Assembly (NCBI RefSeq): GCF_002894645.1
Contig: NZ_NCQY01000002.1
Coordinates: 212,901-276,900 of the forward strand
Direction of reading: 5' to 3'
DNA: 64,000 bases
Source of the DNA: Salinibacter altiplanensis
GTDB lineage: Bacteria > Bacteroidota > Rhodothermia > Rhodothermales > Salinibacteraceae
Shown: positions 15,944-47,279 of the stretch, one piece after another
How positions within the stretch are numbered: position 1 is the first letter of the stretch
How the letters are laid out: each line of letters begins with the position of its first letter
The notes under the pieces: generated by a model
What the model saw: the letters and a program-made list of their open reading frames with translations, nothing else
Told to the model about the DNA's origin: nothing
Database searches by the model: none
Translations under genes and position numbers: made by a program

Positions 15944-18900
15944 ATGTCTTTCGGGTCACGTCGACTGCAAGCATATGCGTTTTCCGTTCTCTTCGCCGGA
16001 TTGCTCCTTTCAGCGACATCGGCGGTGGGGCAGGCGCTAACGGACGCGGAAAAGTCACGGCTGGACACGCGCTTCCGGTCGGTCATTGCGAAAGAGAATC
16101 CCGACGCTGGCCTGACGGCCGCGGGCGTAACTCCAGAGCCCTTGAGGAACCAGGGGCGCGCGAAGCGCGGCCAGACGCGGTATGGGGCAGCCATCTACAC
16201 CAGTGATGTGCAGGCAGTGCGTGCAGCTGGGGTCTCCATTAACTCGGTCCAGCCCGACTTCGTCACGGCCCAGGTGTCGTCCTCCGACCTGCTGACACTG
16301 GCGAGACTGGATGCGGTGCGGTGGGTAGATGCCGGGACTCAGTTGCAGCCCACCAATGACATAACGGGGGGCGAAACGGGGGCTGAGACACTGCGGGATG
16401 GGTTCCTCAATGGCACCAGCTACACAGGAAGTGGAACAATGGTTTGCGTCATTGACAGTGGTGTTGACTGGGAACACGAAGACTTTCGAACCGGGAGCAG
16501 CCTTGCGAACAGCAAGATTGAGTACATTTGGGATCAGACCCTGAGCCCTCAGTCAGGCGAGCAGGATCCCTCGAACCGGGGGGGAGACTTTTCCGGGTTC
16601 AGCTATGGCGTCGAGTATAGCAAGAGCGACATTGAAAGCTCCATAGGTGCGAGCGCCCCCGATGTGCGAAGTGAAGATACGACCGGACACGGGACGCACG
16701 TGGCGGGAACTGCTGTGTCGACCGGAAATGCACACCCCGATGAGAAATACAAGGGCATGGCACCGGGGGCTGACCTGATCGTCGTGAAGGCGGGGAATGA
16801 AAGGTTTTCTTTCAACAATGTCATCGACGGAATGAATTACTGCGGGGAGGTGGCCGACGATCAGGGGAAGCCGGTCGTCGTGAACATGAGCCTCGGAAGC
16901 CCTGCAGGCCCACACGATGGAACGAGTAACGTGGCACGGGCGGTGGATGCGTTTGCCGGAAGTGGACAGCTACCCGTCGTCTCGGCCGGGAATGATGGGA
17001 ACAGTGGCATGCACCTTCGGCAGAGCGTGCAGGCAGGTGCCAGTACGTCGTTCAACTTTGAGGTCGGCAGCTTCACGCCTCAGTCCGGATCGGGCAACGA
17101 CGACGCTCAGTTTGACATCTGGTTCGATACGGCCGATAGCCTCGAAGTTACGGTGGCGGGTCCGAATGGGGCAAGTCACACGGTTCCCTCGGATAGTTCG
17201 TCTGTTGCGGACACCCCCGACGGCGCAATTTCGATCAGCAATCAGGTGAGTGGCCTAAACGGGGATCGACGGGTTCAAGTCCGGGTGTTCGATCAAGATG
17301 CCAGCACGCCCCCCGTACAGGGCACCTGGACGGTCTCGATTGCTGACAATTCCGGGAATGGGAACGGGTTTCACGCCTGGTTCTACGACCGAAATCTTGG
17401 AACCAACGCTGCCCAGTCGCCAGTCCTTGTGGAGGGAAATGAAGTGTCAGCGTCTCCGCAGGAGTTTGCGGCCGACTACGTCCAGGGAGGCGACGGGCGG
17501 TACACCATCGGGACGCCCGGGACGGCGACGAGTGCGCTCACCGTGGGGGCCTGGACACACCGGTGGCGCTGGCGCGACATAAATGGAAACAACCTTCTGT
17601 GGAACAACAACTTCGATCGCACCGACAACATTGCCGTCTTCAGCAGCGTGGGGCCTCGCCGAGACGGAACTCTGAAGCCTGAAGTTGCGGCGCCCGGCCG
17701 AGCGACCGCTTCGGCGCTGTCTTCCGATGATCAATCTGCGGCGTCTCAACTCACGCTTCCCGGCGGAGAGCACGTGTTAAAGAATGGAACGAGCATGGCT
17801 TCGCCGGCGACCGCGGGGGCGGCCGCCCTTCTTTTTCAGGAAGACGGGTCCTTGTCTGGTGCTCAAATCAAGAGTCTCTTCACCAACCAGGCGACGAGGG
17901 ATGATTTCACTGGGGCGACCCCGAACAATACGTGGGGCCACGGCAAGCTGGACGTGTTTCGGGCCATGGCTGAACTCACAGGGAGCAAGGTGCCGGAGCG
18001 AGAGTTGCTGGCCTACGACGAAAATGCTCCTACCAGCAGCCGGAGTAGTGAAATCCTCGGGGGAAGCAACGCCGAGAAGCTGGCCGTTCGGATTACGCCG
18101 AGCATTGGCGGGTCAATGACCGGCGCTCTTGTGCATCTCGGACGTGGGAATGCCAATCAGCTTACTGATTCGCTGAATGTGGAGGTGTGGGACGATGATG
18201 GCAACGGACGTCCGGGGACGAAGCAGGGAAACACGGTGAAGGTCGTGCCGTCGACCCTGGCGGAGCACGCCTGGAATTACATCCCGCTGTCCGGTACGGG
18301 GGCATCCGTCGCAGAGAACACGGACTACCACCTGGTCATCTACCCCGATGATCCGTCCGGGACCCTTGAGGTCTACGCTGAGACACAGTCGGTGGACGGG
18401 CGATCCTCGATTATGACCGGCGGCTCCTCGAACCGCTTGCGGCACCAAGCGGCGGACGACCCGGACGAAGTGGTGGCGCCAAAGTCGGGGGCGACGCAGG
18501 GTTCGTGGGGTCCGTTAAGTGGAAAAGATCTGGCCGTGCGGGGCTTCGTGAGTTCGACTCAGCCCACCGACCTGGCCGTAGACATTTCCTCGCTGGACTT
18601 CAAACTGCTCGACTATCCGAGGCTGCCGACGCCCGTGCAGACCGTCACGACTGTGAGCGTGGAGAACAACGGCGAACCGGTCAAGAACCTGACAGCCAAT
18701 GACTTTGCCCTCGCCGAAGACGGGGCGAACATCTCCATCGGGGCGTCCAGTCAGCAAAGTTGTGCGATTACCCCTCCCGGGCAGGGCCTCAACCGACGCC
18801 TGGCGGATATTGTCTTCATCGTCGACAACAGTGGGAGCATGGGGTTCGAGCAGGACGATGTCGTGCAAAACATTGAGGACTTCGTCGACGAACTCCGGGC

Positions 18901-45281: not shown

Positions 45282-45659
45282 ATGTCCGACGACGTGGTTG
45301 CCCAAGTGATTCTCCGTTCTGCGGATGGGTCTTCGGTGTTAGATCCGGATGAGCCCATTACGTCGGAAACCGTAGACTCGCATCGAGTCGAGAGCCACGT
45401 AATCGAACGCGCGAAAGAGGCCCTCCGTGATCTTGGGTTCGAGGTGGTTCAGGCCAGCGAGGTGGGGCTCTCGATTTCGGGGGACAAGGAACGGTTCGAG
45501 GAAGTGTTCGACACCACGCTGAAAGCGCGCCCGGGGTCTACCGATGCGGACACAAGCCGAGGACAGGTGTACGAGGCGACAGCGCCGGTCCAGATTCCTG
45601 AAGAGCTGTCGTCCCTCGTGGACGATGTTGCGTTTCCGGTTTCCCCCGAGTTTCACTAG
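45282..45659 (+). CDS. Free-standing subtilase propeptide-like protein (cytoplasmic)
   Basis: A 125-residue acidic protein without a signal peptide. It aligns by eye along nearly its whole length with the first ~137 residues of the protease encoded next. DEPITSETVDS matches TEEPITGGNVDE, AKEALRDLGFEVVQ matches AERELRELGFRVLD, EEVFDTTLKA matches QDVFGVALKG, and both stretches end in PEFH (PVSPEFH-stop here). So this gene encodes the pro-region alone. The start is ATG 45282, parallel to the protease N-terminus MSD; ATG 45267 is the alternative. A role as inhibitor or folding partner of the protease is inferred. Confidence 0.82.
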   Translation: MSDDVVAQVILRSADGSSVLDPDEPITSETVDSHRVESHVIERAKEALRDLGFEVVQASEVGLSISGDKERFEEVFDTTLKARPGSTDADTSRGQVYEATAPVQIPEELSSLVDDVAFPVSPEFH

Positions 45660-45722
45660 TTCGTTCGATGGCCACTCGACGTTTATCCTTCATGAACTCC
45701 CTCATAATAGACCAGAGAAACC

Positions 45723-47279
45723 ATGTCTGACGCTGAGGAAAACCCAGAAATCGTCACCATTATCTCGACCAAATCCAAGGGCGGAGTCTCCCTATTCGAC
45801 ACCGAGGAGCCCATTACCGGAGGGAATGTCGACGAGTACAATTCGGATCCGGGGGTTACTGAGGAGGCCGAGCGTGAGCTCCGAGAGCTGGGGTTCCGCG
45901 TCCTCGACGTGAATCCAGCCACCATCTCGGTCGGGGGCTCGGCCGACCTGTGCCAAGACGTGTTTGGGGTGGCTCTGAAGGGCAAGACGAAAGAAGTGTT
46001 TGATGGCGCGGAGGCAGAGTACTTCGACGTGGAAGAGGACGAACAAGAAATGGCCGGAGCGCTGGGGGACTGGGCGGAAGGGGCCACACCAGTTGTCCCT
46101 CCTGAATTCCATGCCGAGAGCCCCATTTCTCCCATTGCGGAGCCTCACTCGGATGCGTACCACTACTTCACAGTCCCCGACGAGGTCGCCACGATCCTCC
46201 GGGCCACCCGTGTGCACCGCAACGCGATTACCGGTTCGAAGATAAAGGTGGCCATGCCGGACACGGGGTTTTACGAACACGAGTTTTACGAACGGCGTGG
46301 CTACCGCACGCGCTCGACAATCCTTGGCCCCGGTGCCAGAAACCCGTCCCAGGACAGCTATGGACACGGCACCGGAGAAGCGGCCAACATCTTCTCGGCC
46401 GCCCCTGATGCCCAGCTAATTCCGGTAAAAATGGGAAACGACGCGGTTGGAGCATTCAACAAGGCCCGGAATCAGAATCCAGACATCATCACCAACAGCT
46501 GGGGCTGGTCGGTGGACCAACCCGGCACGTCCTGGAGGGACATTCGCAACCGCAGTCGCTCCCTGTACAACACGCTGAAGGCGATGGAGGCTGCGATTGC
46601 CAACGCCGTGAACAACGGCATTGTCGTGTGCTTCTCCGCGGGGAATGGGCCGAACGGATACGGCTTCCCGGCCAGCCACCCCGATGTTATTGCCGTCGGG
46701 GGGGTACACGTGAGCTACCCCGACCTGGACCTCGAAGCTTCCAGCTACGCGGCCAGCTTCGACAGCAGCCTGTACTCCGGGCGGCAGGTCCCGGACCTCT
46801 GCGGAATGGTGGGCAATGACTCATCGTCTCTTCCTGCGCCGCTCCTGATGCTTCCCGTTCCGCCCGGAAGCCGGCTCGACACCTCGTCGACCGGGACCGG
46901 GGATGACAGCTGGGGCCTCTTCAGTGGGACATCGGCGGCGGCCCCACAGGTGGCGGGCGTTGTGGCCCTGATGTTGGAGAAGAACAGCTCTCTGAGCCCA
47001 TCTGAGGTGAAGAAAAAGCTTGTCAACCAGGCCGCCAAGGACGTGACGAAGGGCCAGAGTGCAATGGGCGATTCGGCGGGTCCGGGGGACGACGCGGCGA
47101 CCGGTGCGGGAATGGTGGACGCCAAATGGGCCTGGGTCGTGTCCATGGGCGACACGATGGCCCGCTTCTTCGAGGCCACGCCCGAGAAGCGGGAACAGTT
47201 GATCGAGGAAGACGCCGTCCCGGAGATTGACGGGGAGTTTGTAGAAGACATGATGCAGACGCTTCGTTCGCGGTCGTAA
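45723..47279 (+). CDS. Subtilisin-like serine protease without signal peptide
   Basis: A 518-residue S8 peptidase. The pro-region is residues 1-~137. The catalytic domain has Asp180 (VAMPDTGFYEHE), His215 (SYGHGTGEAANI), oxyanion Asn308 (FSAGNGPNG) and Ser404 (SGTSAAAPQVAGVV), so the triad is intact. There is no signal peptide, membrane segment or T9SS tail, so it is either cytoplasmic or exported by an unrecognised route. The C-terminal ~60 residues are helical and acidic (MARFFEATPEKREQLIEED). It starts 63 bases after the propeptide-like gene on the same strand and is probably co-transcribed with it. Confidence 0.9.
   Translation: MSDAEENPEIVTIISTKSKGGVSLFDTEEPITGGNVDEYNSDPGVTEEAERELRELGFRVLDVNPATISVGGSADLCQDVFGVALKGKTKEVFDGAEAEYFDVEEDEQEMAGALGDWAEGATPVVPPEFHAESPISPIAEPHSDAYHYFTVPDEVATILRATRVHRNAITGSKIKVAMPDTGFYEHEFYERRGYRTRSTILGPGARNPSQDSYGHGTGEAANIFSAAPDAQLIPVKMGNDAVGAFNKARNQNPDIITNSWGWSVDQPGTSWRDIRNRSRSLYNTLKAMEAAIANAVNNGIVVCFSAGNGPNGYGFPASHPDVIAVGGVHVSYPDLDLEASSYAASFDSSLYSGRQVPDLCGMVGNDSSSLPAPLLMLPVPPGSRLDTSSTGTGDDSWGLFSGTSAAAPQVAGVVALMLEKNSSLSPSEVKKKLVNQAAKDVTKGQSAMGDSAGPGDDAATGAGMVDAKWAWVVSMGDTMARFFEATPEKREQLIEEDAVPEIDGEFVEDMMQTLRSRS

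Follow-up and report, generated by a model that had tools for sequence, protein, structure and literature searches.

Results

Gene content of the locus

The window, which is the entire stretch of 64,000 nucleotides of Salinibacter altiplanensis DNA analyzed here, contains a small gene and a protease gene that share strand and reading frame and lie 63 nt apart (Table 1). The ATG start of the small gene is backed by alignment with three other species. Inspection of the protease sequence reveals the Asp-His-Ser triad and the DTG, GHGT and GTS motifs of family S8, and the D, H, N and SGTS motifs are intact in all 86 full-length relatives fetched. The exchange of His for Glu that belongs to the Ser-Glu-Asp set of family S53 is not seen: the window protease keeps its catalytic His within GHGT.

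Table 1. Features of the gene pair, with positions counted from the first nucleotide of the window.
Feature	Position	Strand	Remark
Stand-alone pro-domain-like protein, 125 aa, 13.6 kDa, pI 4.2	45282..45659	+	
C-terminal PEFH tail of the small protein, reaching its terminus	45645..45656	+	putative P4-P1 residues, from comparison with propeptides
Spacer of 63 nt between the two genes, in frame, with TGA, TAA and TAG stops	45660..45722	+	
S8 (subtilisin-like) protease, 518 aa, 55.1 kDa, no evident signal peptide	45723..47279	+	
N-terminal pro-domain of the protease, residues 1-130, ending in PPEFH	45723..46112	+	homologous to the small protein
Peptidase_S8 catalytic domain, residues 171-449	46233..47069	+	Pfam PF00082, 8.9e-29
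Catalytic-domain residues D180, H215, N308 and S404	46260, 46365, 46644, 46932	+	

A Glu four residues beyond the catalytic His (GHGTGE, window 46365-46379) is present in 84 of 86 relatives, a count biased by the fact that one search pattern itself included that Glu; it is added to the His and does not replace it. The His+4 position is presumably that of the second acid of sedolisins, and together with the sedolisin-type pro-domain predicted below it gives the enzyme what looks like a mixture of S8 and S53 traits. A second S8 peptidase domain lies elsewhere in the window, within an open frame of 1970 aa (about 16427-17944; G000:C16:229327-230844).

For the window protease, a 12-residue Kyte-Doolittle mean over the first 45 residues, which is a simple hydrophobicity measure and not SignalP, identifies no signal peptide, in agreement with the initial annotation of this DNA. 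The same mean rises above 1.6 in just 2 of 87 proteases, and the window protease is not one of them. The neighboring genes are ordinary, encoding PdxA, an ABC ATPase, an HhH-GPD-like protein, HemB and CysS, and a scan for promoters and terminators near the small gene returned nothing exceeding chance. Two other origins were considered and rejected: PADLOC gave a generic subtilase match for the protease and none for the small protein, which does not indicate a defense system, and 50,697 phage records held no match.

Homology between the two genes

The small protein had initially been described as similar to the pro-region of its neighbor and as ending at the same PEFH boundary, and both statements hold. 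Two-sequence BLASTP aligns 80 residues at 33% identity (E = 2e-9), a search of the organism's own genome recovers the protease copy across query residues 4-125 (E = 8.9e-11), and the similarity is likewise significant by profile. The extent needs trimming, as the homology involves the N-terminus of the protease but covers residues 1-130 (45723-46112) and not the ~137 residues first given. Across the whole genome, no gene beyond these two carries the domain. Alignment with MAFFT of the small proteins and protease N-domains from four species yields 28 invariant columns, with the final P-EFH among them in both families; the small proteins stop there, while the proteases run through.

Both genes occur together in 4 of the 13 genomes of the genus, where identity to the window is 70-72% for the small protein and about 92% for the protease. 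Two members of the genus lack the pair, and their DNA resembles the window only from 47.6 kb onward, just past the two genes. Beyond the genus, a profile search covering 394 genomes of the phylum produced no convincing match, only hits at chance level, such that the distribution of the pair is patchy.

Spread of the pair in bacteria and archaea

Plasmids of Nonomuraea, Calothrix, rhizobia and Paenibacillus hold relatives that a translated search recovered; the small protein alone was too weak a query. Small upstream ORFs that carry the same domain occur at the loci of Nonomuraea and Calothrix, and the small gene of Calothrix is annotated as hypothetical. A scan of genome contigs gave 212 relatives, the best 80 of which entered the locus set. 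This set leans toward relatives of the window protease. Stand-alone ORFs were identified with an iterated domain profile run against the six-frame ORFs of all loci.

A stand-alone domain ORF is found in 68 of the 87 loci that hold a full-length protease (a set that includes the best 80 of 212 relatives), and the initial suggestion to look for the same gene order in other genomes thus gives a positive answer as regards the pairing. Within this set the small gene lies no more than 400 bp from the protease gene in 59 loci (58 without the window) and 1.8-2.0 kb downstream in 9, with one RiPP-type radical-SAM gene between. With the window excluded, 33 small genes are upstream on the same strand, 28 are downstream and 6 are on the opposite strand. 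The occurrence of both orders, and even of opposite strands, indicates that proximity has been kept and not one frozen operon. Convergent small genes on the opposite strand, 25-106 bp past the protease, were observed in Methanosarcina, a Methanotrichaceae bin and a Bathyarchaeota bin (L058, L059, L061, L062).

The 87 loci span bacteria and archaea under about 15 phylum labels. Bacterial labels include Pseudomonadota, Actinomycetota, Cyanobacteriota, Bacteroidota, Bacillota, Deinococcota, Acidobacteriota, Chloroflexota, Planctomycetota, Zixibacteria and Aminicenantes, and archaeal ones Methanosarcina, Bathyarchaeota, Thermoplasmatota and Nitrosopumilus; because many records are metagenome bins, single labels may be wrong. 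Protease length is mostly 450-550 aa. In the fetched DNA of 19 of the 87 loci no small gene was found, chiefly beside cyanobacterial proteases of 650-790 aa, and the partner is therefore dispensable in part of the family. The extra length of these long cyanobacterial members (L065, L079, L081, L088, L091, L093, L100, L102, L117, L124, L125) may stand in for the stand-alone pro-domain.

Among 94 immediate neighbors of related pairs, the sole family common to many loci is TIGR03975, at 9 loci. Since the neighbors otherwise share no widespread family, the conserved unit consists of the two genes alone. The TIGR03975 loci, which encode a RiPP-maturation radical-SAM/B12 methyltransferase (L084, L096, L106, L111, L114, L115, L116, L120, L123), have a PPDFGPT-like tail in most of their small proteins. 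As a separate observation, two rhizobial plasmids (L043, L044) carry protease relatives that have neither the small gene nor the His+4 Glu, in surroundings reminiscent of nucleotide metabolism (CoF synthetase, beta-RFAP synthase, FolE, PurB, PurH, QueE) that are perhaps a purine-analogue cluster.

Age of the pairing

The two labels, 87 N-domains and 68 small proteins, largely separate in a tree. Only 4 label changes are needed, compared to a mean of 50.7 after shuffling, and 0 of 500 shuffles are as low. The tree comes from a quick search over 141 columns, such that its deep forks are unsure while the label separation is clear. The nearest relatives of the window small protein are small proteins from an actinomycetal and a zixibacterial bin, and not the N-domain of its own neighbor. 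Because the labels separate, the stand-alone gene is, as judged from these sequences, an old paralogue and partner that has stayed beside the protease while gene order shifted, and not debris of a local duplication. Distances among small proteins also correlate with distances among catalytic domains (Mantel r = 0.74, 0 of 2000 permutations). This correlation reflects joint inheritance and is by itself no sign of physical contact.

Predicted fold and placement

Inspection of Pfam assigns the small protein to no curated family above cut-off. The only sensible lead is the pro-kumamolisin activation domain (PF09286; 17.2 bits, cut-off 23.5), matched at E <= 1 by 15 of 51 small proteins, with a best value of 5.8e-5. 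Inhibitor_I9 has no match up to E = 1 with the small protein or the protease N-domain and is absent among the 25 families listed for the 51 small proteins, and the small protein likewise gives no Pfam match to BsuPI (PF12690).

The AF2 model of the small protein, built with 50 relatives, describes a strand-helix-strand-strand-helix-strand order at a mean pLDDT of 71, which is middling confidence and falls below 50 for the last 4 residues. Foldseek with this model returned a single match below 1e-3, pro-kumamolisin 1t1e (E 8.1e-4), and 1t1e also ranks first (E 0.0073) when the family profile is compared with PDB sequences. Structural alignment with VIA-align pairs the model with the 1t1e pro-domain over 116 residues at 3.3 Å (Z 10.2, where unrelated rows reach Z 5-7), and with the pro-domains of TPP1 precursors at Z 9.1 and 8.8. 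Subtilisin propeptides and POIA1 score Z 5-6.4, which is not above unrelated folds. The small protein is thus predicted to fold as a protease pro-domain of the sedolisin (pro-kumamolisin) type rather than the I9 type. That is to say, the propeptide-like structure anticipated at first is retained in the model, but not in the form of a classic I9 subtilisin propeptide.

Placement was modeled on a read-through fusion of both genes, 665 aa long with the stops written as Gly, which gave a pLDDT of 84 and a pTM of 0.74. The subtilisin fold is evident, as the fusion model matches mature subtilisins at 1.9-2.4 Å over about 250 residues (Z about 30). Fusion residues 155-623 comprise the protease including its N-domain, and this segment superposes as a single body on unprocessed pro-Tk-subtilisin (325 residues, 2.8 Å, Z 31.8) and on pro-subtilisin E (327 residues, 3.6 Å, Z 33.2). 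Because N-domain and catalytic domain align together in this way, the N-domain of the protease lies at the propeptide site in the model. This placement concerns the protease's own cis N-domain, which is what fills the site in the fusion model. The stand-alone proteins have a conserved P-P-E-F-F/H-like tail at or just before the C-terminus, and at most 3 residues follow the last P-x-aromatic/Leu in 54 of 69 small proteins.

Discussion

A proposed protease/inhibitor module

The pair is likely to be a protease/inhibitor module in which a stand-alone pro-domain acts as cognate inhibitor of a leaderless subtilase. Features that lead to this reading include the homology and recurrent pairing of the two genes, the predicted pro-domain fold, the intact triad motifs of the protease, the lack of an evident signal peptide in it, and the propeptide-like tail of the small protein. 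According to the proposed mechanism, the downstream gene would give a subtilisin-type endopeptidase that lacks a signal peptide and bears its own N-terminal pro-domain, and the upstream gene a free copy of that pro-domain, folded as a protease pro-domain. The free copy would dock at the propeptide site of the partner's catalytic domain, with the ..PEFH-COOH tail entering the substrate cleft as the product of pro-domain cleavage would. The protease would thereby be held inactive in the cytoplasm, with the small protein possibly also aiding its folding, until the inhibitor is removed, for example by degradation, or until the protease exits the cell. What we infer in this mechanism is that the small protein binds and inhibits in trans, that the protease is cytosolic, and that loss of the inhibitor releases it. 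With this qualification, the initial interpretation holds largely in kind.

Both central steps have parallels among subtilases. The C-terminal residues of the cleaved propeptides of subtilisin and SUB1 sit in the active-site groove (PMC6993865), and nanomolar concentrations of a subtilase propeptide can be enough for inhibition of the cognate enzyme in trans (PMC10580911). Counting against the inhibitor reading, the protease already bears a pro-domain in cis.

Myxococcus PopC and PopD, and other readings of the small protein

The initial annotation knew of no established bacterial operon of this type, a statement that has to be withdrawn in light of Myxococcus popCD, in which one operon encodes a leaderless subtilisin-like protease and its inhibitor. 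PopC is a 50.8-kDa subtilisin-like protease with no signal peptide and an N-terminal part without a recognized domain, and PopD complexes with PopC and is degraded on starvation (PMC6434023, PMC4320627). PopC found in the medium retains its native N-terminus, and its N-terminal part therefore need not be lost for secretion. By analogy, popCD is the described system nearest to the present pair and a probable precedent for it.

Whether the Salinibacter pair is of the full PopC/PopD type is a further question, and one that we would answer with a cautious no. Here the small protein would retain the leaderless protease, and its regulated degradation would allow secretion and cleavage of a surface protein; this is a special case of the inhibitor reading and not exclusive of it. 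The make-up is the same, comprising a leaderless subtilisin-like protease of ~50 kDa, an N-terminal part without a named domain and an inhibitor in the operon, and distances to MrpC sites imply that popD (MXAN_0207) starts 1437 nt after popC (PMC6434023, PMC4320627), a spacing compatible with a protease no longer than about 478 aa and popD directly behind it. The likeness of a leaderless subtilisin-like protease beside a small-protein gene is one of described make-up. On the other side, popD lies downstream of popC, whereas the small gene here lies upstream; FtsH(D)/stringent-response release and Oar secretion are known only for PopC/PopD; and the archaea and Gram-positives that have the pair are without the outer-membrane route described for PopC.

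It is improbable that the small protein is chiefly a folding helper, that is, an intermolecular chaperone that serves as template for the catalytic domain and is degraded afterwards, leaving no lasting inhibitor. The pro-domains of mesophilic bacterial subtilisins are chaperone and inhibitor at once (PMC10580911), and the predicted fold suits either role. Yet the protease's own cis pro-domain can do the folding, and small genes that lie downstream or on the opposite strand do not favor a strictly co-translational helper.

Still less probable is a role of the small protein as protease substrate or precursor, in which the domain would be a leader delivering a C-terminal product as in RiPP pathways. 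The TIGR03975 radical-SAM C-methyltransferase gene between protease and small gene at 9 loci speaks for such a role, and leader-processing S8 enzymes do exist, with EpiP and lanthipeptide-protease structures among the structural matches. Against this, the window and most loci have 0 or 1-3 residues past the P-x-aromatic motif, which leaves no core peptide, and there is no radical-SAM gene among the window neighbors examined. Finally, although the small gene lies in tandem and in frame with a parent-like domain, the notion that it is a functionless, decayed partial duplication of the protease gene is scarcely credible, as it is contradicted by a tree in which the small protein joins stand-alone proteins from other phyla, by an ORF intact in all four species (70-72% identity) and by the presence of the gene in 68 loci.

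Relation to other propeptides and inhibitors

The cognate-inhibitor reading has functional counterparts in the separately encoded propeptide mimics POIA1, yeast peptidase B inhibitor, Arabidopsis SPI-1, TgMIC5 and Plasmodium SUB1-ProM, which inhibit subtilases. Such stand-alone mimics are established in eukaryotes, and SUB1-ProM is encoded near subtilase genes (PMC6993865). Unlike the small protein, they are eukaryotic and of the I9 type; here there is no Pfam I9 match and the closest fold is a sedolisin pro-domain. The gene described here also differs in directly adjoining its likely target, in both bacteria and archaea.

By sequence profile and structure the nearest pro-domains are those of pro-kumamolisin and TPP1 (MEROPS S53). 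The matched structures, however, are the cis pro-region of a Ser-Glu-Asp peptidase, whereas the catalytic domain here is a Ser-His-Asp S8 enzyme. In the model, the cis pro-domain sits on its catalytic domain as it does in pro-Tk-subtilisin and pro-subtilisin E, for which no separate second pro-domain gene is described. Bacillus subtilis provides another intracellular subtilisin with a protein inhibitor, IspA (Isp1) with IPI (PMC3901451). In contrast to the predicted alpha/beta pro-domain of the small protein, IPI has an Ig-like, all-beta fold; homologues of its gene are not adjacent to subtilisin genes (PMC3901451), and Isp1 has a propeptide of 18 residues.

Implications

The pair may represent a general prokaryotic switch, in which S8 proteases that lack a leader and carry a sedolisin-type pro-domain in cis would each be guarded by an ancient stand-alone pro-domain, across about 15 phyla and in some RiPP clusters, with PopC/PopD as the sole studied case of a family not yet described as such. 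We offer this tentatively, placing its chances a little short of even. In the open-access literature searched, neither the wide occurrence of the pair among bacteria and archaea nor the presence of a sedolisin-type pro-domain on an S8 enzyme appears to be documented.

A dedicated, linked inhibitor would explain how cells tolerate a subtilisin-type endopeptidase that has no signal peptide. The pairing provides a ready annotation for 'hypothetical protein' genes adjoining 'S8 family serine peptidase' genes, makes the membership of PopC/PopD in a wide family testable, and would be a source of small, natural, cognate subtilase inhibitors. The combination of an S8 catalytic domain with a predicted sedolisin-type pro-domain also bears on the relationship between families S8 and S53.
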